This document shows, piece after piece, positions 267-46,282 of a DNA stretch of 64,000 nt. Source of the DNA: Sipunculus nudus (taxonomy: Eukaryota; Annelida; Sipuncula; Golfingiida; Sipunculidae); NCBI GenBank assembly GCA_026874595.1, contig CM049321.1, positions 24,580,479 through 24,644,478 on the forward strand, written 5' to 3'. Numbering within the stretch: position 1 is the first letter of the stretch; each line of letters begins with the position of its first letter. Below the pieces are notes generated by a model. That model did no database searches, was not told the DNA's origin, and was given only the letters and a program-made list of their open reading frames with translations. The position numbers and the translations under genes are program-made.

Positions 267-3200
267 ATGGCCATGTCCAGACCACTTCCGCAGAATGATG
301 GTAGTGGTAGGAATTTTGAGTGTTCCATCTGTTTATTGCCTATGGATGACCATAAACCACGTGCTCTTCCTTGCCTTCATACATTCTGTGAACCATGTTT
401 GATTAAATGTGCGGAGAAAGAACGGAATGATAAAATCACTTGCCCTACATGCAGACAGGTAACGCCTCTTCCACAAGGAGGAGTTGCTGCACTTCCCATC
501 AATTTTCAACTTAAGCGGTTTTCTACGATTCTTCACCAAGATAGGTACTGTCAAAATTGTATAGAAACTGTAATATCACCGCCTCTGGCAGCTTTTTTCT
601 GTGATACCTGTCAAAAGAAATTTTGTGGTTCGTGTACGGCAAAGCACAGAAACATTCATTTGTTTTCGGAGCATTTATCGGTTCCTCTTAAGAAAGACAT
701 GTCGCATAATTACACAAATGGCTGTGCACAACATGACATGCCGGTAGATGTATATTGCTCAGTTTGTCAAGAATGCATTTGCGCGTTATGTGCAATGAAG
801 GAAAAGCATAGCGAGCATTATGATAAGCTACTTGACTTAAAGAAGGAAGTTGATAACGCCTCTACACAAGCGACGCATGCGCTAAACCAGATAAAACCTA
901 ACTTATCTTTATTTGACCGTTCACTTAATGATAGCTTACACAGTCTCAACCAACTGTATACACATATACGAGAGAAAGGGAATGAAAGAAAACGATACAT
1001 TGACTTGGACGTCGAAAAGCTCCAGAATGAACTTGAAGAAAGCTTCATTCAACCCGTCAAAGAATGTATTAAACGCGTGAAACTGTTTGAGGATAACATT
1101 AGAAAGACAGAAAATATCATCGAAGCGAAGCAGACAACGTTAAATACATTGACAGAGCTTAAGCGACACACTTATGAGTGTATTGAAAAGAACCAGCGTT
1201 TAGTGGAAATTGTGAAAACGTTAAGTGACGTTCCGGAACTCCAGGTGTCCCCAGAACAGTCAAGCTTTGGAGCACTATCTTCAAAAGCCGGTCCTCGAAG
1301 AATGCAACTCGGTAAGATACTGTTCCCATCTTTACATATATGTTGTATATGTGTAAAACGTGACTGTAACAAGACACGTGAAATGTTGTACCTAAATCTG
1401 AACATTAAAAATGTAGTATGAAAGATTGCAGTATAATACATATTTACCATTAAAATCAATGGCTGGCTGGTAATGATCATATATAAACGTTCATGTAACA
1501 TGTGTTAAACATAATACGTGTGTTACATGACAATACATATATAAGCATGTTCAAGTAACACTGATATTGTTCAGATATGAATTCACCTATTTCATCAAGT
1601 GATGGGTGTAACTGAGTCCATTTGTTATTTAATTAATAAACCAACCGCTGAGCAACAAACCTTCTGGCCTACTGAGGGTCTAGCTATCATTGCGCTACTA
1701 CGATATTATTGAATGAATTATGTTAAGCCTGGAACGAGTGCCATAGTCCAACATTACAAGTTCAACAGTGCTAATTTGTGTTAACAAGCTTGTTATCTTG
1801 TATCGGGGACTAGGCAAAGTTTTCTGAAAACAAGTGATCTGATTTCTAGGCTTTGATATAAAAAAGCTCACAACAATTAATAAGTATTTTATAAAATAAT
1901 AATGACCTAGCTTTACCAAAGTATGAACCCGACAGAAAGAGCTTTGCATCAAGGATAATTATAAATATATAACATGCTGCTCGAATTCAATAGTTACTAT
2001 CTTATACTCTAAGATTATGCAATATGACATGGAAATACCGTGTAGTAATCAACGATGCCATTCACCAACTTTGCCTGGTTAATGCGTATTATTTCATATT
2101 AAGTCTACATCACTTTGACTGAACGGAGGCAATCAGTGATAAATATGGTGGACCGACGACTTTTAATTGTGAAAGGACGATGATTTATCATTTAATACAT
2201 GCACATCGTAACCAAATAATTATTTTATACTGAAATTGCATTATAGAAGAAATACCTGAGGAAGAAGATACCGAGAGGGATCCGGTAAAGAAATTTGGAG
2301 AACGCGTGACAAGGGTATCGGGCCGTGGTCCCGTAAGTATATAAAACTTATTTTGTTATTGTTTATCAGCAATCCACAGAGTTATATGCTGCACAGATTC
2401 ACAAAGGTACATATGTCATCACTCGAACAATATGCATCACAAACAATAAATATCAATACATCTACAGGTAAAGGAATTGTGTCTTTAACTAGGGTTATTT
2501 AATTACATCTTGAGCGAGAAGTTCTGTACAGAAGAGAAACGTATTAAAGCTCCAGTGTGTTTGATTTTCTGTGTATCTCTAATATTTTTTCAGACATAGT
2601 GGACTATATTTAAGTATGTCCCTTAATTTGAATCCAAACAATTTATATTTACGTGAATCGTGTAGTATATTCAGAATAGTTAACTCATGTAATAAGCTAA
2701 TTAATTAAGTAGCAGTTCCATCTAATTTTCCAAGATTTACGGCATGACCAGTATAGATGTTACAGTGTCTCAATATCATTGTTAGAAAATGTTGCTATCA
2801 TATCAGTATTAATCTTCCACTTATATTACCAACCGTTGTCAGTGAAAAGTCATGCAGCATTCGTTTTTAAAGGAACTGTGATTTACATTTAAACATCCAT
2901 TGAAGAAGATGAAAAAGTTCAGTTTTCCTGTTTATAGCCATACTTTCAATATATGTATTGACCTGTGTGGGAAGGATTACCTTGGGTTGCTTCTTTCCGT
3001 AATAAAAATACATTTGGTTATTTTTAATAAAAGGTATTTCATTTTTAGTTAAAATTTCAGTAGTCTTTAGCTTTCTTACTTCATTTGATCTGTCTCTTTG
3101 TTTCAGGGATTTTTAAAGTTTAAATTATTCCTCTCCACTGCATATGACATCTAAGTAGAAAAAAAGCGTATTTTCTAGGTACTAAATGGATTTGTCTCTA

Positions 3201-4160
3201 CCATAGCACATGCCATTATGGAAAGATTGTATATATTTATATTATTTTATATGAAATTATAACATTTACTTTGCAAGTTTCCAGGGCAAAGATTCAGGTG
3301 GCACAATTATTTAACAAGGTGATCACCTCCTCTTTTAATAAAAAAATACGTATACACAGGTGTCCATGATTAATAATATTTCTGAATAGTTCAAAGAATC
3401 CACAATATTTTGTCAAAATGTACTTTATTTATAAAATTTAGCTGATGTTTCATCACTACATGGGCTTTTCTTTGATTTTATGCCTATTAATGCAAACAAG
3501 TAGACGCGAGTTTGAGTAAAAAATTTCCATAAAATTGCCGCTCAAATTCCAATATTTACTTCAAGTCAGCTTGCAATCATCAGCCTACAGACATAGTTCT
3601 TAATTGCATTTTTTCCCAAGATTCGAAATGTACTTTTTTTTTCATTCATGCCACCTGACTTTTGACTTAGTTATTACAACCTTAAGGTTTTTCTTGATCT
3701 ACCTTATATGACAGATGATTGATCGTTCACCTGTATATCTAATGGTTTCTCTTAAATTCTCAGATGTTCCTTTGGTTCTTTCTCTTTCATCTAATCTATA
3801 CCTCATATGCAAATCTAATAATGATATTGATTTATTTATAAACGTCACGGCAATATAAATGTATGAGGAAGTAGATAACAATATGGTGAATAGATAACTT
3901 CAGTTTAATTTAAGGATAAACGTAAGTTTAGCAAAAAAGAAAAAAACTGTTAATCAGTAAGCTTTCTAATCCCTATCTCTTACAATCGCTTTAAACTTGG
4001 CAAAATTTTTCCCTTTGCCTTATAGGTTGTGGTTGGCACTGTTCTGGGCGTGTGTGGCACTGGATCTGTGGCCGTGCGGTGGGATAATGGTGTCAACAAT
4101 TTCTGTCAGGCAGAAGACCTGAGAGTGCTACATGATTATATGGTTGAACAAAATATATGA
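267..4160 (+). CDS. TRIM-like E3 ubiquitin ligase: RING, two B-boxes, coiled coil, MIB/HERC2 (intact, 3 exons)
   Basis: Three exons, 267-1311, 2247-2332 and 4026-4160, join in frame to 421 residues. The RING is C3HC4 (C19, C22, C36, H38, C41, C44, C59, C62). A B-box-1-like finger spans about 95-136. B-box 2 is canonical (C153, H156, C164, C167, C172, C175, H181, H184). Residues 185-320 are charged and heptad-like, a probable coiled coil for dimerisation. Residues about 363-421 resemble a MIB/HERC2 domain: G-x-R-V-x-R, then G-T-V and the WDNGVNN motif, split between exons 2 and 3. RING/B-box/coiled-coil proteins are typically ubiquitin ligases; MIB/HERC2 domains bind partners in Mind bomb and HERC2, so this one may select substrate. 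I chose ATG 267 because an acceptor (T-run, AG) ends at 265, so the longer frame from 201 is probably intron; a second ATG follows at 273. All introns have GT-AG ends. Exact substrate is unknown. Confidence 0.8.
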
Positions 4161-7531: not shown

Positions 7532-8282
7532 GTTACAATAAACAGGAAGTAACTCACTCTTTTACCAAAGAAGTGTACGTATACATATTATGTGGTTATA
7601 TGGAACTATCATTCCTAATACGCGCCGCGGACACAGTCATGGACTTTATACATGTATTTGATATTGACACTATTATCGCCCACATACGTTGTAGTATTGG
7701 AGGAACTAGTATACACTTTGTCCACTAAGGTGAGCAGTCTTCTGTAATATTCAAATAGGAAAGGCAGTTGCACTGATATACATAGTTCCAGTGAGAAGAG
7801 AGTGTTGTACAGGCCTACATATATTCTGGTTTGTCAATGTTACCTACTTGAACTTTATTAAATTGCCCGTATCGAACATAGAGTACTGTGCGCTTTGAGA
7901 TCTGTATCATGTAATATGAGTGACGTATTGATTGTTCTACCGATATCTTTTGACAACTAAATCGCCTTGATCTGGATTAATTCTATAACTAAGATATGTT
8001 GTGGTGATAGTTATTCTCCTGAAGGCAGGACTTGGTGATGTCAAAAGAATTATCCAAGCCCTGTACGCATTGTTAACAGCCGACAGTCAAGTGGAATACC
8101 CCGGTATTATAAGAATATTAAAATGAAATATTTATGCATTATTATATTGATTTTTCATACAAAAAAATGAAAGATCTGAGGAAAAATGCCTGTATTTGGG
8201 GCCTTCCAGATATATATTTTAAACCTATTTCAGATAAGGATTTCTATTAATTATATTGTGTGGATGTGGTTGAAGGATAGCC

Positions 8283-10207
8283 ATGTCCAGACTGCCGCAG
8301 TCGACTGATGATAAGGGTGGAATCTTTGAGTGCCCTCTCTGTTTTTTGTCCATGACGGACCGTAAACCACGTGCTTTGCATTGTCTCCATACGTTTTGTG
8401 AAACGTGTCTGGTGGAATTTGAGAAGAAATGCAAAAAGGGATCAGTAACCTGCCCTAACTGAAAACAGGTGACGCCACTATCACAGGGAGTAGTTTTCGC
8501 ACTTACACAAATTTACCAACTTGGTCAATTTTCTTCGATTCTTCGACAAGAAAAATACTGTGAAATCTGTGTAGAAACCGTAAAGTCTCCGCCGTTAGCG
8601 ACTTGTTTCTGTAATAAATGTCAACAGAAATTCTGCGAATCCTGCAAGGAAAAGCATATATCTATTCCTGTGTTTTCAAAGCACCAGCTTGTTCCTCTTT
8701 TGGAAAATAAGTCGAAGAAGGACACAAACAAGTGTGCGAGACATGACTTGGACCTAGATTTATACTGTCCAGAATGTAAAGAATGTATTTGCACGTCATG
8801 TGCTATGAACGAAAAGCACAGCGATCATTACGAAAAACTGTTTGACATGAAGACAGAAATTGAAACTCTGTCCGAACAAGCGTCAACAGTTATAAAACCA
8901 AGGAAAATAGACTTGTCTTCATGCTCTCGTTTATTAGATAAAACCATGGAGCGCCTGTATGAACTTAGTGAAAATATACGAAAGGAAGGGGATAAAAGAA
9001 AACGACAGATCGACATGGAAGTAGAAAAACTTCAGGTGAAATTGGAGGAGAACTATATTCAACCTGTCCAAAATTGTATCACCAATTTGAAAGGTTTCAT
9101 GGATAATATTAAAAGCACAGAGCAAATAATTGAGGCTAAGAAAATAGAACCTCAAACATTAGAACTATTGAAGGTATATAATTCTGAGTGGAAAACTAAT
9201 AACATTATTTTCGAAAAACAAAATGAAAAAATTGAAGAAAGTGCCTGAGTTTGTAACCTCACAGGATTCTCCAAGCATTGGACATCTGGGTAAGACTATA
9301 AACCCCATCAATATATTTTGTTACCGTGTATTACTAAAATAAGGAGGCTGATCATGCTGCATAATACAGCATTACAGTGCTCACTTCATGAAAAGAACTA
9401 TAACATACATAATAAAATAATATGTACAAAATACATAATAAAAATAGGTGTAGTTTAAATTCACAGGCTTCATAAGGAAGAATCGGGCATGAGAGTATGA
9501 ATTCGATGAGTGACAGGCAATGGGTTGGTTTTTTACATACAAAAGGTTTATATGCAGAGCTGAATTGATAAAGGCCGTGACTGTAGCTAGGTTTTTTCAG
9601 TATTTGTTTCCTACCATATACTTCCATTCATATATAATTATTTTGAATCTCGTTTGTAAAGGTTAATTGCTAACTCATCTTTAACGCTTCGTCGATAATG
9701 TCTGTGGAGAGAGACCTCGGTGTCCATCGGTTTGGGTAATATTGTCAGCAGTGACTCTGAGTGACTACCTTTGTGATTCACAATTACAGACAGCTGGCTT
9801 TACCAATGTGTTGCTCATATTTTAATGGTTTAACTACAGTTATCATTTATCGTTAAAGGTGGTGTATTTTAACATACGGCCCCTCACTACACCAGATGTC
9901 TTATGCACCTGCCGGAGACCTTGTTTTTAATAAATCTGAAGTATGTTATTTCAGTTGAAATACCTTGCCCTGAAGATTTGGAGGCCATGATGAAACGAGG
10001 AGCTCGCGTGGTAAAGAGATCAGGTTTGGGCCTCGTAAGTGTGTTGGAACTCGTTTTGCTAATTTTTTAATCATAATTGTGGCAATTTAGCGTCATAGCG
10101 AACTAAATATCTCACGAAATAGATACCCATGTGATCTAATAAGTTTTGTAAAGTTTACAGAAAGTAAAATTTAAAATTAATGTTTTACAGGTAATTCTCT
10201 CCTCTTG

Positions 10208-10262
<55 letters not shown>

Positions 10263-10445
10263 TATACAGAGAGAAAGAGACAAACTACATATACTCGTGT
10301 ATTTTTACAGGGTTTAGAATCCCTAGTTGAAGGAACAGTATCGGGGGCATGTGGCGGTGGCTCTGTAATAGAACAGTGGGATAATGGTGCTAACAACACA
10401 TGCATTGTAAGCAACGACGGTCAGTACGACCTCCGGCTGACTTGA
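8283..10445 (+). pseudogene. TRIM copy 2: RING/B-box/coiled-coil/MIB-HERC2 gene with in-frame stop and frameshift
   Basis: Paralogue of the gene at 267-4160 with the same three-exon plan: 8283-9289, 9955-10034, 10311-10445. The RING starts normally (C17, C20, C34, H36, C39, C42, C57), but the codon for the eighth zinc ligand is TGA (8460-8462) where copy 1 has TGC. After it the frame stays open to 9248 through an intact B-box 1, B-box 2 and coiled coil. A net +1 shift near the A-run at about 9225-9232 then moves the reading frame; in the shifted frame residues VPEFVTSQDSPS align with VPELQVSPEQSS of copy 1, and the donor at 9290 is phase-compatible with exon 2. Exons 2 and 3 are undamaged and carry G-A-R-V-V-K, E-G-T-V-S-G, WDNGANNTC and a terminal YDL. 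The upstream acceptor has lost its T-rich tract. Most likely a young pseudogene; assembly error at the A-run could explain the frameshift but less easily the TGA. Confidence 0.75.
10209..10267. repeat. (TA)n microsatellite in last intron of TRIM copy 2
   Basis: An almost pure TA tract about 45 bases upstream of the exon 3 acceptor at 10309-10310. Confidence 0.9.
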
Positions 10446-13689: not shown

Positions 13690-14600
13690 ATAATCGATGA
13701 GTGGTCGATCTGGTTTTTGTCTATGATGGGCACCAAACATGTCTTCATACTTGTTGTGAGCTCTAGTTGACAGAATGTGAGAGGAATGCATGAAAGGCTC
13801 AATCACCTGTCCAATGTTAAGACAAGTCACTTCGATTGTAAAGGGAGGTGTTTTCGTACAACTTTCCATACAACTTCATATTTCTCCAATTTTCTTCAGT
13901 CCTTCGTCCAAATTAATACTGTCATATTTGTATAGAACCCTTACAATCACCGACGTTCACAAATCGGATTGTTTTTGTAAAATATGTCAACAGAAATTAT
14001 AAGATTCGTGCAAGGAAAAGCATCAAACCATCTCTCTATTTTCAGATCGCCATTTTGTACATCTATTGCCAAGTAATTTGAAAAAAAATGTAACATTCAA
14101 ATGTGCCATACACAATATGGCCTGGGATATATACTGTGAGGAACGTAATGAATCCATCTGCACGTCACGTGCTATGACGGAAACGACATTGCAAGCATCA
14201 AGAAAACCTTATAGAGAAATGGGCACCTTCTCTCAACAAGCCTTTCTCCATGCTCATCGCATGAAATTGTGCAAACATGCGCAAAGTAGGGGATAAAAGA
14301 AACTCAACGAGTGTCCCAAAGCTTGAGAAGCAGCTGGAAAAAGTTCAACAATCCCGCCCAAGAGTGTATCACAAACCTCAGAAGGCTAAGCGAGAATATA
14401 ATAAAGATGGATAGCAAAATCCAAGAAGAGCGGATATCCGTGAGACCAGTGGCCGACCTGGGATTGACTATTTCAAGTGCACAGTAAACTGTAATATAAA
14501 GCAGAGTTTAATTAACAGATGGAAAAGCTGACAAAGGTACCTACTCCTGAAGTATCACCAGAACATTCAAGATTCGGATTTATGTCTCAAAGCTTTCAAC
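13690..14600 (+). pseudogene. TRIM copy 3: heavily decayed RING/B-box/coiled-coil pseudogene
   Basis: Collinear with exon 1 of the TRIM genes but broken by several stops, indels and a RING deletion. Recognisable pieces are the RING end at 13808-13822 (C-P-M-L-R-Q, final cysteine replaced by TTA leucine), a B-box-1 remnant at about 13915-14030 (CKICQQKL then a stop), a B-box-2 remnant at about 14099-14175 (FKCAIHNMAWDIYCEE, with several zinc ligands replaced, for example ICTSR), and the exon end at about 14536-14595 (VPTPEVSPEHSRFGF, matching VPELQVSPEQSSFGA in copy 1). I see no MIB/HERC2 exons downstream. It cannot encode a functional ligase. Confidence 0.78.
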
Positions 14601-15645
14601 TGCTGGTGTTAATGATTGTCCCTTCATCTGTTTCTCATCTTTCTATGACACCTTTGCTCAGAATTTGCTGACTTTCGGCAATACTTAATCGAAGTACGGT
14701 CCTCGGTATATGTGATCACGGGTTTGCAGCAGTGCAGAAAGAAGCTGGCTATATAAGCTTCGCCCTTTGATTGGTTTTACTTGAAAAAGTGTCAGTTGGT
14801 GTGTTATACAAGATAGGTTGTCTTGCAGGATATTGCACATATAAGACCTTGTTTTTCATTATATCAGTTTTTAATCAATATTTATCACAAAAAATATATA
14901 TTTTGTACTGCAGGATAATCCTCCTCTTTTAGAGGAAAATTATTGCAAAAAAAGCTGATAAAATCCACGTTTATTAAAAAAAAGATGAACAGCCCGTGTT
15001 TCCTAAAAAAACTTGTCTACCTAGATCATTCACTGGCATAAAATGGATTTTTTTTTTCTAATTAAAAGTTGCGGTATTAACTCAGGTTTATCGAGCTTAA
15101 GGTCTCTTTATCATTTTTCCTTGGTGTAACTAAGCTCTGATGCAGCCGTCGAGGTAATGGACTAAAACATACGATTCCCTTGGCTATTGGCCATAATCAA
15201 ATATCATGATCATACCAGAAGCCAGGGAAGATCCGGATTTGATTGAAGCACCCGGTGATGATGGCGCCAAACTTTTTTTAATTTGTTTGATATGAAGGGC
15301 GTTTAATACCAGCATGCTAATTTACTCTGGCCAATATTATTAATCAACTGTTTTATGCATTGTAGTTTAATATATTAAACCATACACTGGTAAACACACT
15401 GTGCACTATGAGGCAAAGTGTTAAACTAATGATGAATTTAAATCGGTCATCAAACATACTATGTAAGATTTTCAAAAAAAATCATTTGTGGTGCTTTTGT
15501 TCATTATAATCAACTGTACTGGGAAACTACCGAAGTTATAGTAGCGCTTTTCATCAGCCTTATTTGTAGAATTTATGGAATATCCTGGGTACACATTAAC
15601 AAAACCTTATGTAACTCCTGCTAGGAAGAGTTGTTACAGTGCCCC
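14601..15645. other. Intergenic stretch after TRIM copy 3
   Basis: Non-coding. It includes the first copy of a roughly 120-base repeat (15153-15272) that recurs at 16530-16655. The two MIB/HERC2 exons expected here by analogy with copies 1 and 2 are not recognisable. Confidence 0.5.
15153..15272 (+). repeat. About 120-base direct repeat, first copy (second at 16530-16655)
   Basis: Shared landmarks: ACATACGATTCCCTTGGC, ATCATGATCATACCAG, GCCAGGGAAGATCC and TGATGATGGCGCCA. Identity looks high, with only scattered substitutions. Confidence 0.85.
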
Positions 15646-16045
15646 CGTTATGGATACCTCAGCTTGGTTTTCTACAAAGCGTGATTGGTACCCTAGTTCG
15701 GTTATCTACAGGCGTGATGAGTACCACAGCGTGGTTAACTACAGGCGGTCGGGTACCTCTGCTCGGTTATCTACAAACGTGATGGGTCTTCCAGCTTGGT
15801 TATCTACAAGCGTAATGGGTACCCCAGCTCGGTTATCTACAAACGTGATGGGTCTTCCAGCTTGGTTATCTACAAGCGTAATGGGTACCCCAGCTCGGTT
15901 ATCTACAAACGTGATCGGTACCCAAACTTGGTTATCTACAGGTGTGATGGGTACACCGGCTAGGTTATCTACAAATGTAGTGGATACACCAGCTCGGTTA
16001 TCTACAGACGTGATGGCTACAACAGCTTGGTTATCTACAAATATG
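15646..16045 (+). repeat. 33-bp minisatellite, about 12 copies
   Basis: The unit reads roughly GTGATGGGTACCCCAGCT followed by CGGTTATCTACAAAC. Copies 5-6 and 7-8 are the same 66-bp dimer, so the newest growth was by dimer. Because 33 is a multiple of three, the array makes an open frame at 15575-16057 with an 11-residue period (VMGTPARLSTN). Copy 1 is 34 bases and copy 4 is 32, so copies 2-3 are read in a different frame. That argues against selection on a protein. I treat it as a satellite, not a gene. Confidence 0.88.
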
Positions 16046-16530
16046 TGGCTAAAATGAAACTTTTCGATTTGATGTGCTGCTATTCGATTCTGGCACGTTG
16101 TATGCAGATCGACCCTGGGAAATGAAACTGCTTTATTAAAGAAGCCTTTAAGATCAGTGTGCAGAGTTCTATTAGCCTCATTTTAATATAGAAAGGCATC
16201 CATAAACAAAGACTAAATGTCCTGCAAACACAATCAAAGCCGAGGTTTTCGTCGGTGTTTACAAGAGTAGGCTACGAAATAGCTTGCAACAGGTGAGCCA
16301 ATACTCAGCGTTATCCCTTCTCATTATCATGGTAGGTATAATATTTATATTTATATTAATGGGTATTAATTGAGTTCTCAACCAACGGACGCCAACAGCA
16401 AAAAGAAAAAAGAAATATTTGTGAATATGACACACCATAGGCTTAGCTGGGCTATCTTTTATGGGGTTACAACGTTGTTATCTTACCTGTTTCGAGTTCT
16501 ACATCTTATTCTTAATTTATAATATTGCGT
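16045..16530 (+). repeat. Segmental duplication block, second copy (first at 12121-12590)
   Basis: Collinear with 12121-12590 with indels; see that entry for the shared landmarks. It abuts the minisatellite on its left and the second 120-base repeat on its right. Confidence 0.8.
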
Positions 16531-21322: not shown

Positions 21323-21825
21323 CTAAAACTGGGTAACAAACACCGTAACGATGACTACAATCGTTAATGTCACAACAAACCCGATCATGTCCATCAAAAA
21401 GCTGATAAATACTGCCCTTTGTGATCTGTCAAGGTTTGTCTCATCTTGTGCCTTTTGTGCGTAAATAATCCCAACCACAGCAAACACGAAATTAACTGGC
21501 AAGCAAAACATGGAAAAACACAGAACTCTCTCTGCACGTTTGGCTGTCCGTAATCGAAGTCTTTCCGTTTCTTCTTCTAATATTGGCACAGTTGAGCGTG
21601 TGGACCTCCCGCTTGTAGATCTAACAAATGCTGGACCCTGAAAAAATGGGAAATTCTTAATAAATTCTTCCGTAATGCTGCTAGACATGTCATATATTCT
21701 GTATCTCATAGCATATGTAGTTCTTCAAAGGGACCTTTTAACACAACATGTGTTACATGTTAACGAAATATTTTCGTTTCTCCAAAAAATAATAAAAATA
21801 ATAATAATATAATAATAATAATAAC

Positions 21826-32098: not shown

Positions 32099-34488
32099 GC
32101 GACACGCCCATTATCAATCTCCACCAGAGCTCGCTACCGCTTCACATATCTCGGTTAAAAGTCCACCATTTTGCAGAAAACCATTTCCCAGAAATTTCCT
32201 ATGATTTGCGTACTATGGTTGGCTTTTTGTCCTAGAGGGTTTCAATTTAACGATAATAACAGAGGGGAAATTATTGCGAAAAGAATACCAGAATAAATCG
32301 TCACATCTCCACAGTTGAACATTAATTTATTCTCTAACCTCAATGGCATCTCAACACGCATTATGTTACCAGTAATTCACTGATTAATAATTTGAAGAAT
32401 AAAAATTCTGTTGCATGGCTTCTCCTAATACAGAATTGAATAGAGAAATTTCCCTGTCCTATATTCCCTGACCTATCCTCGTACAATAGTAATATGGGCC
32501 CAATCACAAATAAAGCATATTGAATTAAGAGAAAAATGGCTTCTTCCCTTTAAAATTAATCTGTACCTGCCAAAATATTGTCTTGAAACCGTTTGCTTAC
32601 TCATGTAAAAAGGGCTAATAAACAAGGGACCGGGCGCGATCACAGGTGTTAACATAAACACAGCGCGTGGGGCCGTGTGCATGGCGGAGCCATAACACGT
32701 ATCAATCAGGAGATGCCCTGACTAACTTGGCCCAAAATATAATACATGCCCCCGTTGACTGAAACACCGGGTGGTGAAGTATACAATCGGATCTCCGGTC
32801 CTGCACCCTTGTTATGGTAAACAGACACACGATGTCTGTGTTTACCATTACGCAGAAACATAACAAGGTGTTAAACAGCCGAATGCGAGTCACTGAGATT
32901 GTGTGCAGGGATGGTTTAACTGGGAATCTTTTGTATAAAGCCAAACTGATCTAAAAGTGTTAAATAATATAACATAATATTGCTCCTGAAAATGTGCCTT
33001 TACGATTTTGCGTAACCAGAAAGAGTAACACTGTTGTAAAGAATATAATAATGGTTATATACATTATGTCAGTTACTGTATGGTAAATCACGAAAATGAA
33101 TCCCACGTGAAACACAGAAGTGAATAATAAACATCGCGAATGTATGCCAACCACAGTGTTTTATTTGGATGTAGATGTACTGGTTCTTATTAAATCGATG
33201 ATAAAAGATTCAGAAACAATTGATGTTTAACCATTATCTCGAATAATAATATAATAATTTTGGGCTAAAATATGGCATCGTTCTTAACTAGGCAGATATT
33301 CATCCAACGGACCATATTACGTGGACAACGATAGCATGGGAAACCAACATGATACACATATCAGTAGCAAATGGTTGAAAACTACATATATGACATACTA
33401 AGGTACTAAGAATTATTACATTGAATCAAAAATATTTTGCAGTTCCTATCATAAGAATGGTTTAATCCAAGTAAGATGATGTAACTCCGTGTTGACAGCA
33501 CGTTTTGCCATGGTGACATAGGTCGAGGAGAATTCATCCTTAGTTCAGGTCCAGTACTTACCACTTTGATAAGCCCTTGCCGACCATTCTGCAATTATAT
33601 TGGACCTCAGTAATACAAACACACAATCAACGAAGATCACATCATAACATCGGATGTATTACCTCAGTACGTTAGCGTCATAGCTCTGCTAATTAAAGAT
33701 AGTTACTCGAATACATAGAGTTTGCGGGAGGAAACTAACACCTATATCAGTATGAAGGAATCTTTAAATAAACACGCCTCGATGCCATTATCACAAGTAT
33801 ATAATTATTTCTAAGCATTTTGTTAATGAGATGGAAGGTAATCAGTCCGTAGCAAACTAAAAAAAACATAAGCCGATCCTAAAACGGGTTAACACGCCCC
33901 CTTTTTTAGCCACTGCAGTCCTTTTCTTTCTTTTTCATGACTTTTTCCAGCCGAAGTTATTCTAAAGTTTTTATTAAAGTTATTCTCATTTGTCTTTTCA
34001 TTTGTTGGAACCCTTCTGATAACAAATTCTGGATCGGTCCCTGAAAAGGAAGGAAAAAGGGTTGTAAATTTATATTGTCAGCACGTGTATATGGTGATCC
34101 TTAATCTAATGTTTCATTGGTATAGTCACCATTTATCTATCCTGGTTTTAAGTGCTGGACTCTTTTAGAGCAGTAAATTAGGGCAATCTCTCTGAATGAC
34201 AGCAGTTCGAGCAAACGCTCGACTATATCACTTGCACGACGTGTCGTAGCTATGGCGTAACCAGGAAGTAATTATGTTTTAAAAAAAGCCCTGTAGTCTA
34301 GAGCCAATAAATATTTAGGTTATAAACAAAATCAACTGCTTATTTAAGTGTGACACGCTAGGTGTTCATTTCAGCTTAGAAAGTGGATGTTGCTATATGA
34401 ATTGCTAAATATCCGTTAATTTTATGTATCCGCGGCTTGACAAATAACAAAACAAAGTACAGAGGCGAATTACCTGGGAAACGTTACC
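32099..34488 (+). repeat. Duplicated upstream region of CD225 gene B (matches 42724-44631 upstream of gene C)
   Basis: Collinear anchors: GCGACACGCCCAT, TTATGTTACC-GTAATTC, ATAATGGTTAT-TACATTATGT, ACACGCCCCCTTTTT, CAAATTC-GGATC, and the last 100 bases before the ATG. Divergence is large with many indels, but order is kept. Confidence 0.7.
34394..34400 (+). promoter_or_regulatory. Possible TATA box of gene B
   Basis: CTATATGAATTGC, 95 bases before the ATG, aligns with CTATATAAATTGC at the same place upstream of gene C. The B version departs from consensus. Confidence 0.4.
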
Positions 34489-35898
34489 ATGGAAACGAAT
34501 CACCAACCAACGGAAGCTCCAGGAGTGAGTGACCATACAAAAGTCTCCATAGAAGGGACGCGGCGGCCTGAAGTGTCGGCCACCAGCAATAGACGGTTTC
34601 AACAGCAGGTAAAGAAAACCAAGTTTAGCTTTAGCTGCTTGAGAACAGATGTTTGCTTTAGAGGATACCGTTTTTAAAAAATCACATACTCATTAAACAA
34701 TCCTAAATTGTTTCTTCTAGTTAAAGAAAGCCGAGTCTGTTGTCTGTTTCAAAATCCAGGATCGGCCATCCATTTAAAAGTGGAATAACTGAATATGGTC
34801 ATCTTTCATCTTATTTGATTCTTATATATCTATATAAGGTAAAACTTTGTGTAGAAGTCGAACGGACAGCCGTAAAACATTGATAGGCTTAAGGTGCAAC
34901 ACACACTGGATTTACTCGTTGATAATTTATCTTTCGAGGAAAATTCTAATGTGTTAGTTCAACACAAGGGTAATATTCAACCTACGCGTGTCCTATATAT
35001 AAAATGAGGGTAATAACCTCAATGTAATTTATGATACGTGTGACTTTTATAACAGAGGAAATATTATCATACAGTAAAACTCGGCCTGACAACGACTCAT
35101 TGGATAATGACTATTCCATTATTATTGCCATTAATTTTGTCCGGTCAGAGCACTTGCCTAATAAAACCACTCTGTTAGTTCATAACTACGGTATACTGTT
35201 ATAAATGAAAACTTACAATAATTCTGTAATTTTATTAATGGAAGGCAAAATCATGTGAAATATTTGTATTCTGTAAGGATCACTATAATATATGTATATA
35301 TTGCATGTGCAAATTGCAAGCTTTGACATTTGGGAGTATGGTTGAAATAATATCCAGGAAACGTGCTTTATTTTGTTTTCCTTGCGTTGGAAGTGTTCGT
35401 GTACAAAAATGTGTGTAATGTATATTGTAATGAGTTTAGCAGTAAAATATATAAAAAGAAAACTACTGTATACCGTTCCGAGAGGCCCTAGTTTTAGTTA
35501 GGGTTAGCAAAAATTGATGTTCCTTTAATCTCTTTCAGGGTATCTCTGCACAGCCTGTGGCTCAGCAAGCCGGCCTGCCGCAGAGTGCATATTCTAGAAC
35601 TTGGTTGTTGAGCCAGCAGGCCGCCGCGCAGAGGGAAGAAATGATCAAATCCACAGAGAGAGCAGTGTGTCTATCGATCGTCTATTGCCTTTTCGTAAAC
35701 GTTCTATTTGGGATCGTTGCCATGATTTTGGCCTGGAACGCCCAGAACGACGCCCATGATGGCAATCTGGATGAAGCTCGGAAATGGATACAGCGAAGCC
35801 GCGTTGCAATGGTGATTGGAGTCGTGGTATCCTGTGTGGCCGTTGCATTCATCATTTATATCTACGTGACTATGCCAGACTGGGTTTTCAAGCACTGA
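34489..35898 (+). CDS. CD225/dispanin (IFITM-like) two-pass membrane protein, gene B
   Basis: Exons 34489-34608 (40 codons) and 35539-35898 (119 codons plus stop) give 159 residues. The intron is phase 0, donor GTAAAG after FQQQ, acceptor CTCTTTCAG. The first 80 residues are polar and hydrophilic (METNHQPTEAP start). A first hydrophobic segment spans about 82-105 with C84 and C90 as candidate palmitoylation sites. The loop WNAQNDAHDGNLDEARKW resembles the conserved polar loop of CD225 proteins, followed by the S-R-V-A-M-V-I-G helix and second membrane segment at about 128-150, and a short tail ending VFKH. CD225 proteins such as IFITMs sit in plasma or endosomal membranes, where several block virus fusion; here that role is inference from family only. 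Exon 2 is about 89% identical in protein to gene C. Confidence 0.86.
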
Positions 35899-35954
35899 CT
35901 TGGTCACCAAAAGCGCCAAAACGTCGTTTCGCTGTACCACACAAGATTCGATTA

Positions 35955-35960
35955 AATAAA
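35955..35960 (+). terminator. Poly(A) signal AATAAA of gene B
   Basis: Canonical hexamer 57 bases after the stop codon. The aligned site in gene C reads TAGTTAAA and is lost. Confidence 0.7.
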
Positions 35961-36429
35961 GTCACTGAATTCATTCATTGAGGTTTCATCCCATTTTAAA
36001 TCCTTAAAAGTAAAATCCCTGGCGCAATCTAATATTAAGAGGTTTTTGCCGAGGATTCTACCTTAAATGAAACTGTTTCTTTGCTCATAATATAAAAATA
36101 AGGATTAAAAGAAAATAATTTTCATAAATTATCCATATTAGGATATCCATCTTGATTTTACTTACCTACCTGTAAACTATAGGTATTTGGGAAGATGAGA
36201 ATATACCTTTACGACACAGAAGTTTAGTGGTACGCGTGTGACTGACATTGTTTTACTATGAAGATGTTAACAGGATGAAACATTTGACAAAAGTTCCAAA
36301 TGTAAAATTCATAAAAGTTAAATTTAGTCGAGAAAACATGCTTAACAGATCAGGTGAGGAGACTCAGAGGATAAGCATGATTTGTTAATTAGAGGTGGAT
36401 CCAAAAAAGCCTTTTGGAGATTTCGCGTC

Positions 36430-42660: not shown

Positions 42661-44540
42661 TTAAGTTCATATATTGCTCTGTGTATGTCATTTAGTGTGA
42701 AAAAAGACATGTGTCAATTTGTTGCGACACGCCCATAACTAATCCGCACCAACTGTGCCGGTATCACCAATCTTAGCACAATTTTTATGTTACCGGTAAT
42801 TCAAAGGTTGATAATTAGTTTTATCAAAATTCTGTTGTATATCTGCTACTCTTGTAGAATTGAAAAGTTTTCTCTTTTTCCTTGTCCCCATAACGCCTCG
42901 TACAAATTGTTATGATTGTGCGTGCCCATTAGGTAAAGGAGACAATATAATGGTTATGTACATTATGTTAGTAAATGTGTGGTAAATTGCGAAAATGACA
43001 TCCTTGTGAAACACTTCAGAAGCGAAAAGTGAACATATTAAACCTACCGACTATTAGGCCATCCCCAATATTCTTTTGGATACATATGTTGTGGTTCTTA
43101 TGATATCCATGATAAACATACGAAAGTTTAACAAACAATTGATGTATAGCCATTATCTCTAACGTTAAGGCTTAAACAGGGTATTGTTATAGGGCAACAA
43201 AATATTTATTCATCATACCAAAATAAAGACACGTATACAGCGATAGCATTGGTAACCAACAGGATAAACACATTCATTACAAATGTTTGATAACTACATG
43301 ACTGGCATATCAAGTTTTACTTATTTTAACAATGTATCACAAATGTTTGAAGTTGCTATCATACGGACGTTCAAGTTTAATACAAATTGCCTATGTAACT
43401 CAGTGTTTACAGTACGTTTAGTCATGGTGCCACCGGTTCATGACCGGGTCCAACAGAGACAGACAGCTATTCAGGTCCGAAGCAGACTTACGGCACACTA
43501 CCACCAGAAATTGTAATTTTGGTTAATTCGTTAGACACCTGGAACAAACCCTTGTATCTCTTTTTCATAAAAACTATGAAAAATTTCATTTATTTCAATG
43601 AAAGATCAAAGTAATAAAACATAATACATGTTACCGTCTGTTTAACCAAATTTAAAATAATATTTCATGTATTCACTTATTCATACCACCCATAAAAAAT
43701 TAATCAGGGTCCTAATTTTATCTAGAACTTAGTCATGTTGTCTCTAGGTACTTTATGCTGACCACTTCATTAGCTCTTCCTGACCAGTCTGTAATTATCC
43801 TTTGACCTTAATAAATACAGACACACAGATAGTCAACAGAGATCACCAAAAAAAATCATGGGAAGTAATACCTCAGTAAATAGCCGTCATGGCTCTTTTA
43901 CTTTTAGATGTTTCTTCGAGTAGATAGAGTTTGCAGACAGAAACTAACTTCTTCCTAGCAAACAGAAGCGGATCCTTTAAAAGGTGAAGAGCTCTGAACA
44001 CGCCCCCTTTTTAGCAACCGCAGTCTTTTGTTTAATTTTCTCATCATGTTTTGCCGATTACCATCCCCCCCCCCCCGCCCCGATCCCCAGCCGACCAACA
44101 CTTCTGGACATGACACATTTTTAAAAATGTGGTCAAATTAATTGGTCTTCATGCTTTGGAAAATTCCTTATAGCAAATTCAGGATCAGCCCTTAAAAGAA
44201 TTAATAAAATTTGAAAATTTCCATTTTCAATACGTGCACATAGTCATGCTTTATCCGAGGTTTTGTTGGTACTGTCACCACTTGATCATAATCAAGTAAG
44301 TGCTTTGATTTCTTAGAGCAGTAAATTAGAACAGTCTCTCTTGGGGACTGCGGAGTGAGCAAACACTCCATTAAATCATAAACACGACCTATCATAGCTA
44401 TGTTTATCGACCAGGAAGTAAATATGTTTTAATAAAAAGACCTACAGTTTAGCGACAATAAAACTTTTTGTTATTAACTCAACTTAGCATTTCAGTTGCT
44501 CGCAAGGTATTCATTTTGGCTTAGACCGTTGATGTTACTA

Positions 44541-44546
44541 TATAAA
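44541..44546 (+). promoter_or_regulatory. TATA box of gene C
   Basis: CTATATAAATTGC, 91 bases before the ATG at 44632. Conserved in position with gene B and near consensus. Confidence 0.55.
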
Positions 44547-44631
44547 TTGCTTTATATCATTTTAATTTATATATCTGCTACTTGATAAATAAAAGACCAG
44601 TACAGAGGCGAGTCGCCAGGGAAACGTTACC

Positions 44632-46001
44632 ATGGAAACGAATCACCAAGCAACGGATGATGCCGGAATGTGTGACCATACAAAAGTTCCCATAGAAACG
44701 ACGCCGCGGCATGAAGTGCCGGCCACCAGCAATAGTTGGTCTCAACAGCAGGTAACGATAACCAAGTCAAATTTTGGCTGCTTCTTTGGCTGATTTTTGC
44801 TTTTCAGGATACCGTTTTTGATCAATCACATACTCGTAAAATAATCCGAAAGTTATTCTTGGTTATAGCCCAGGCTGTTGTTTTTTAAATATCATTCAGA
44901 ATCGGCTATAATTATACGTGGAATTGCCGAACATGTTCATCTTTGTCATCTTTTATAATGTGCATACTTGTATAAGTTTAAACATCATGTGGAAGTCGAA
45001 CGGGCCGCCATAAACCTTTGCTTTGATTACTTGGCAATAATTTAACTATGGTTGAAAATTCCAAATTGCTAATTCAGCAAAAGTGTAATATTCATCCTAC
45101 GTGCGTACGGTATTTCACTGTTTTTTTTCAGAGAAATAACAACCTTTAGATTTATGATATGTATGACATTTATAAACGGAGGAAGAATTATCATCCAGTA
45201 AAACATTGCCTGACAGCGACCTACGTAAAATGACTTCTCCATTATTAAAGCCTTTAATTTTTGTTCGGTCAGAGCACGGGAAATTTAGTCATCCCGCTAG
45301 TTCACAACGACTGTGTACCATTCTAAATTATAATATAGAGCAGCTTTGTCGATTATTTACGAGGCGAAGCACGGATTTTTGTATTCTGTAGGGACCATTA
45401 GAATATATGTATACTCCATGTGCCAATTGCGAGCATGGTTGAAAAAAAAATATTCAGGAAACGTGCCTTGTATTAATTGCATACATTGTATTTGATGTGA
45501 TCGTGTACGAAAATTTATTAAATGTGTATTGCATTGAGTTATGCAATTAAACATACATGTCGTTTTAAAAAAAATACTGTTTATTAGTTCGAGAAGCCCT
45601 AGTTTAAATAGGGGTTTTCCATAAATTGATATTCCTTACAGGTTATCTCTGCACAGCCGGGGGCTCAGCAAGCCAGCCTGCCGCCGAGTGAATATTCCAG
45701 AACTTGGTTGATAAGCCAGCAGGCCGCCGCACAGAGGGAGGAAATGATCAAATCAACAGAGAGAGCAGTGTGTCTGTCGCTCGTCTATTGCCTTTTCGTA
45801 AATGTTCTATTTGGGATCGTCGCTATGGTTTTGGCCTGGAACGCCCAGAACGACGCCCATGATGGCAATTTGGATGAAGCTCGGAGATGGATACAGCGAA
45901 GCCGCGTTGCAATGGTGATTGGAGTCGTTGTATCCTGTGTGGCCGTTGCATTCATCATTTATATCTACGTGGCTTTGCCAAACTTGGTTTTCAAGCACTA
46001 A
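44632..46001 (+). CDS. CD225/dispanin (IFITM-like) two-pass membrane protein, gene C
   Basis: Exons 44632-44751 (40 codons) and 45642-46001 (119 codons plus stop) give 159 residues, the same length as gene B. The phase-0 intron has donor GTAACG and acceptor TTCCTTACAG. The N-terminal exon (METNHQATDDAG start) is more diverged from gene B than exon 2. Exon 2 differs from gene B at 13 of 119 residues by my count, mostly at its two ends; the span from SQQAAAQREEM to IIYIYV is almost unchanged, with C84 and C90 kept. Membrane layout and probable role are as for gene B. The poly(A) hexamer seen in gene B is mutated here; an AATAAA at 46283-46288 could replace it. Confidence 0.86.
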
Positions 46002-46282
46002 CTTGGTTCCTAAAAGAGCCAAAACGTTGTATTACTGTACCAGACATGATTTGATTAGTTAAAGTCAATTAATTCAGATTCAGTTTTAGATATATTGAAC
46101 CCAAGTCCCATTTACATCAATTAACCCGTTAAAAAATCCCCAGAAATTAATTTAAAAATAACATCTAAAAAACAGTTTTGAGACTGTCAGGTAGTATGGA
46201 AAGAACCCATTAAATGTGGCTTGCTGTTACCGGTCTCTTAAAATTGTGTATCATTTAAAAAACTAAATATTTCGAAAATTAA

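Follow-up and report, generated by a model that had tools for sequence, protein, structure and literature searches.

Does the gene at positions 267..4160 of this Sipunculus nudus sequence encode a TRIM ligase that ends in a MIB/HERC2 domain? The window, that is, the whole stretch of DNA analysed here (64,000 nucleotides), starts at base 24,580,479 of contig C16, in a genome of 1.43 Gb and 153 contigs. TRIM ligases are classed by the module at their C-terminus, which presumably determines the ubiquitination targets, and a MIB/HERC2 tail would add a class. The C-terminal classes listed for these proteins are SPRY, NHL, FN3, filamin, MATH and PHD-bromo. From the analyses described below, we consider it likely that the gene, referred to as TRIM_A, encodes a TRIM-type RING E3 ubiquitin ligase, and that two small exons supply a MIB/HERC2 domain as its substrate-binding module at the C-terminus.

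The predicted junctions of TRIM_A join 267-1311, 2247-2332 and 4026-4160 into one frame of 421 residues, with introns in phase 1 and then phase 0; the three exons, phases and frame given in the initial annotation were all reproduced. Exon 1 (267..1311, + strand) encodes the RING, B-box 1, B-box 2 and the coiled coil, and ends in phase 1 at the donor GTAAGA. An acceptor-like TTTTTAG stands directly 5' of its ATG, so an untranslated 5' exon could lie upstream. Exon 2 (2247..2332, +; phase 1 in and 0 out, donor GTAAGT) encodes a linker and the first MIB-like part (FGERVTRVSGRG). The second MIB-like half (GTV...VRWDNG...DLRVL) and the stop codon are on exon 3 (4026..4160, +).

All eight zinc ligands of an N-terminal C3HC4 RING (aa 19-62, 321..452, +) are present, as judged by the ligand pattern and Pfam (PF13445, 1.4e-7; PF00097, 1.8e-6), and this part also matches the TRIM2 RING in fold. 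Two PF00643 stretches follow C-terminal to the RING. B-box 1 (aa 95-136, 549..674, +) was assigned from its zinc-ligand pattern, and the ligand positions show at least 90% conservation among 18 aligned TRIM exons; the eight ligands of B-box 2 (aa 153-184, 723..818, +; PF00643, 1.1e-5, and ligand pattern) are invariant in this alignment. The AlphaFold model (mean pLDDT 80.7, pTM 0.38) and heptad periodicity place the coiled-coil helices at aa 191-286 and 292-318 (837..1220, +). Their 3.5-residue periodicity was equalled in 0 of 500 shuffles, a test that covered TRIM_A alone among the loci described here. No SPRY, NHL, FN3, filamin, MATH or PHD-bromo module was found in TRIM_A (Pfam, E≤1).

A sequence search of the PDB with TRIM_A gave 16 matches, the top five being TRIM2 (three), TRIM3 and TRIM56; TRIM23 and TRIM25 are also among these relatives. 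The fold search gave 12 matches at E≤0.001, nine of which are TRIM RINGs or TRIM72 (seven TRIM2 RING chains, TRIM72 and the TRIM23 RING). The remaining three are Toxoplasma pre-conoid chains, and two of them top the list with low TM-scores.

The initial annotation had counted two copies sharing one exon plan. The plan itself is upheld by the second copy, TRIM_B, which retains four splice sites and has small exons of 80 (9955..10034, +) and 135 bases (10311..10445, +), compared to 86 and 135 in TRIM_A. A second working gene, however, it is not. Exon 1 of TRIM_B (8277..9289, +) has ATA in place of ATG, a TGA at 8460-8462 where the RING should have its last cysteine, and a frameshift near its end, before the donor. 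We therefore rejected the possibility that both copies in the window are working genes, and describe TRIM_B as a pseudogene. Its exon 3 has a MIB-type ending, GQYDLRL, that is absent from TRIM_A.

A relic of a third TRIM copy lies at 13740..14761 (+). The three forward frames of 13736-14800 contain 14, 15 and 16 stops. A part of it, 14528-14761, weakly matches (E 0.19) the end of exon 1 and the MIB part jointly, without an intron-sized gap. Judged from its sequence, the relic might be a retro-copied TRIM. Beyond the relic is a tandem array (15646-16051), with a unit of ~66-67 bases by self-match offset and ~80% likeness. No TRIM copy was found in the 10 kb upstream of the window (best E 4.7).

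We searched the genome with the 421-residue protein; 100 matches were listed, and 99 of 518 first-look candidates were scored. The TRIM exon family looks very large, and a good number of the matches listed fall within a single frame of ~600-750 residues. MIB-type exons were located 3' of TRIM exons, on the same strand, at eight loci (A to H), seven of them on C16 and one on C10. Intron phases are 1 and 0 in the six resolved models (A, B, C, D, F and G), and exon 3 is 135 bases long in A, B, C and F and 183 in D.

Four of the eight loci (A, C, D and F) look intact, with the RING, both B-boxes and the MIB tail. Locus C (C16:24553663-24552550 / 24551884-24551805 / 24550136-24550002, − strand) encodes 442 residues, and no module of the listed TRIM C-terminal classes was found in it at E≤10 (Pfam). 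Locus D, also on the − strand of C16, has exon 1 from 24528185, exon 2 at 24524365-24524268 and exon 3 at ~24513540-24513358, the last exon being ~10.7 kb beyond exon 2. Locus F (C16:25569993 region) has exon 2 at 25571880-25571995 and exon 3 at 25573108-25573242. Locus H (C10:53482512-53483357, −) has no B-box 1 pattern, and its exon 3 (53473947-53474051, borders approximate) lies ~8.5 kb after the TRIM exon. The other three, B, E and G, are broken. Locus E (C16:24564566 region, −) lacks the first half of the RING and has an exon-2-like stretch only; no exon 3 was found between this stretch and gene C. At locus G, in the C16:25594839 region and with its exon 3 from 25596429, the RING and the B-boxes are in different frames and a tryptophan takes the place of the first RING cysteine.

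Nine full-length COX1-type frames that are nearly equal, at 577-578 residues, and have no stops in the standard code were also noted on contigs C60, C61, C62, C66, C72, C74, C75 and C89 of the same assembly. These frames suggest the presence of bacterial contigs, from symbionts or contaminants, in the assembly.

Next, we consider the identity of the tail. The expectation that a Pfam search of the 421-residue model would return the RING, the B-box and MIB_HERC2 was borne out for the first two, but not for the third: MIB_HERC2 (PF06701) matched neither the TRIM_A protein at E≤1 nor its tail at E≤10. For TRIM_A taken alone, this is an outcome that the initial annotation had named as refuting its reading. 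A search of the PDB with the tail also gave 0 matches at E≤10. Against a profile built from three MIB domains of this genome, the TRIM_A tail scored 13.2 bits (best shuffle, 13.0), and the TRIM_B tail, which has no MIB_HERC2 match in Pfam, scored 21.3 bits (best shuffle, 8.1). When the profile was instead made from the tails of the six TRIM loci B, C, D, F, G and H, the TRIM_A tail scored 38.0 bits and the best of 5000 shuffles 14.4.

The kinship with MIB/HERC2 comes from the paralogues. The curated Pfam cut-off for this family is 33.5 bits, and it is exceeded by the F tail at 42.8 bits (5e-11) and by the D tail at 34.2 bits (2.4e-8); C (27.1 bits, 3.9e-6), G (23.0 bits, 7.7e-5) and H (21.7 bits, 1.9e-4) are below. 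The profile of the six TRIM tails, which leaves out TRIM_A, matched the three MIB domains of the genome with an E of 9.4e-19 in a single comparison. Loci C, D and E also carry a MIB-type motif, PG-x-R-x-x-x-GPD, in their second exon. We conclude that the predicted TRIM_A tail is an eroded relative of MIB/HERC2, an identity that rests on the paralogues.

When the genome was searched with Pfam's own MIB_HERC2 model, 8 exon matches were listed, none of them in the window or at the TRIM loci; this search scores each exon alone, and the MIB-type domains of the TRIM genes are split over exons. The other MIB exons of the genome were named from their sequences, presumably as MIB1, MIB2, HERC2 and HECTD1. 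Outside the TRIM genes, the MIB exon nearest to the F tail is at C10:18786018 (E 3.8e-5), which we take to be HECTD1. A weak match to the F tail (E 1.22) was also recorded at C2:64078306-64078422 (−), away from the listed C2 TRIM exons.

The proposal of the initial annotation, a possibly lineage-specific ligase family in which a MIB/HERC2 module follows a TRIM-type N-terminus, is supported by the eight loci and by the D and F tails above the Pfam cut-off, although two of its grounds proved weaker than given there: the second window copy is broken and the Pfam test of TRIM_A's own tail failed. The genomic sequence shows the predicted gene structure, the domains and the existence of MIB-tailed TRIM genes in this genome. 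They constitute a real small family of putative TRIM ligases with a MIB/HERC2 tail, whose function we infer from known families.

The tail of TRIM_A might have lost its role. It has neither the motif GPDW nor an ending of the form G-x-Y-D-[LI], both of which are present in C and D, and the failed Pfam match, the three broken loci among the eight, and a TRIM part of the same group for which no MIB exon was found (L014, below) would all be in keeping with a RING/B-box/coiled-coil ligase that acts through its coiled coil and carries a vestigial, decaying MIB tail. We regard this as unlikely. The tail keeps an open frame, intact splice sites and the core GTV / V-x-V-x-WDNG, and pS exceeds pN in its comparisons with all five of the other tails (in 15 of 15 pairs among A, B, C, D, F and G). 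For exon 1, dN/dS was 0.33 between A and C, 0.47 between A and D, and 0.36 between C and D, at synonymous distances of ~0.8-1.2 among A-D. The predicted coding sequence of TRIM_A is under constraint. TRIM_A is a genuine member of the family, with the most worn-down tail domain among the intact copies. The shortening of its MIB part, without GPDW and G-x-Y-D-[LI], probably means that binding has shifted or is being lost.

A tree of the TRIM parts (30 rows) placed the eight MIB-bearing rows within one group of ten, with support of 92/88 on a branch that was not starred. The group also holds L014 (C16:25559215, +) and L015, for which no MIB exon was found within ~9 kb and 7 kb downstream, respectively; the position of L014 in this group suggests that the module may have been lost there. 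The MIB label requires two changes on the tree, and as few were obtained in 0 of 500 label shuffles; a single change was sufficient in only 5% of 200 bootstrap trees. In most of the other rows the MIB exon was sought within 1.5 kb downstream only (3.5 kb further for L016), and its absence from them also rests on searching the genome with the tails of A, C, D and F. Searches of this kind can overlook weak exons, as F's exon was unlisted with the tail of C.

Another possibility is that the tail is not MIB/HERC2 but a different small SH3-like barrel, for example of the UBE2O SH3-C type. SH3-C_UBE2O is the top Pfam match of the TRIM_A tail alone, at 20.9 bits, just below its cut-off of 21, and the H tail scored 20.1 bits with it beside 21.7 with MIB_HERC2. 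However, the D and F tails are over the MIB_HERC2 cut-off, while UBE2O is weak in F (13.9 bits) and absent in D at E≤1; the MIB-type motif is present in the second exon at C, D and E, and the profile comparison relates the TRIM tails to the MIB domains. The paralogue scores and the profile comparison both point to MIB, and we rejected the UBE2O assignment as very improbable. A further alternative, in which the join is an artefact and the MIB-type exons are part of another gene downstream, could draw on the junctions being predicted from genomic sequence and on the long gaps in D and H, but it is likewise very improbable and was rejected, since the same exon order on one strand is seen at all eight loci and the same phases in six, on two contigs, despite the exon-1 synonymous distances given above, and a TAG directly before 4026 closes the frame of exon 3 in TRIM_A.

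If the MIB-tailed proteins act as other TRIM ligases do, the RING would bind E2~ubiquitin and transfer the ubiquitin, the coiled coil would form an antiparallel dimer, and the B-boxes would permit higher assembly; the MIB module would pick the substrate in place of SPRY or NHL. According to PMC11887331, MIB1 uses its MIB-ZZ-MIB part to bind the Notch-ligand N-box. By analogy, peptide binding would be the likeliest use of the TRIM MIB module, which would probably grip a short peptide. In MIB1, two MIB domains act jointly with a ZZ finger, and a lone MIB domain may be unable to bind peptides. A MIB-tailed TRIM would allow the peptide-gripping part of Mind bomb to be studied in a ligase of ~420 residues.

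The family probably originated from one or a few joinings and then spread through duplication, some copies decaying. A more specific proposal, which we put forward as tentative and rather doubtful, is a new TRIM class in which the peptide-binding MIB module was captured once, as two phase-matched exons placed behind the RBCC exon, and the genes then multiplied and decayed in clusters like an immune recognition family, so that every copy would mark a short epitope of its own for ubiquitination.

CD225/IFITM-like exons are also located in the window, at 35518-35895 (+), 45630-45998 (+) and 21326-21724 (−). The first two are over the Pfam CD225 cut-off (2.3e-7 and 4.3e-7, respectively), and the third reached only 0.48. 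The former two lie within a duplicated stretch (33997-35973 and 44148-46076, 74%). Such exons would fit an antiviral neighbourhood if the MIB-tailed family had a part in immune recognition.

No description of a TRIM protein with a MIB/HERC2 tail was found among the titles and abstract openings listed in searches of open-licence literature with limited terms; architecture databases may hold one. A term search of the accessible text of Marin's TRIM classification (PMC3503706) gave 0 occurrences of 'mib' and 0 of 'herc2'. On the sequence evidence, the MIB/HERC2-tailed TRIM is a real C-terminal class of putative TRIM ligases, not found described in the literature searched.

Both domain kinds of TRIM_A are reported to be expanded in bivalves, yet in separate orthogroups: OG314 (Mib-herc2) has 15.1 genes per bivalve species against 0.4 in others, and OG708 (B-box) has 8.9 against 0.1 (PMC8382680, Table 1). 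The parts of PMC8382680 available to us hold no statement that Mib-herc2 and B-box share one protein. A MIB-tailed TRIM would unite these two separately expanded domain kinds.

Like the TRIM/RBCC E3 ligases TRIM2, TRIM3, TRIM25 and TRIM56, TRIM_A has a RING, two B-boxes and a coiled coil in the standard order, but where those ligases carry SPRY, NHL, filamin, MATH or similar modules at the C-terminus, it has MIB/HERC2. As in Mind bomb (MIB1 and MIB2), a single ligase combines a RING with a MIB/HERC2 domain. The order in Mind bomb is MIB-ZZ-MIB first, repeats between and RINGs last, whereas in TRIM_A the RING comes first and one MIB domain last, with no ZZ or ankyrin match in Pfam. HERC2 and HECTD1, which are HECT-type giants, each have one MIB domain from the family to which the TRIM tails belong; TRIM_A, in contrast, is a RING-type protein of ~420 residues with no HECT match in Pfam.
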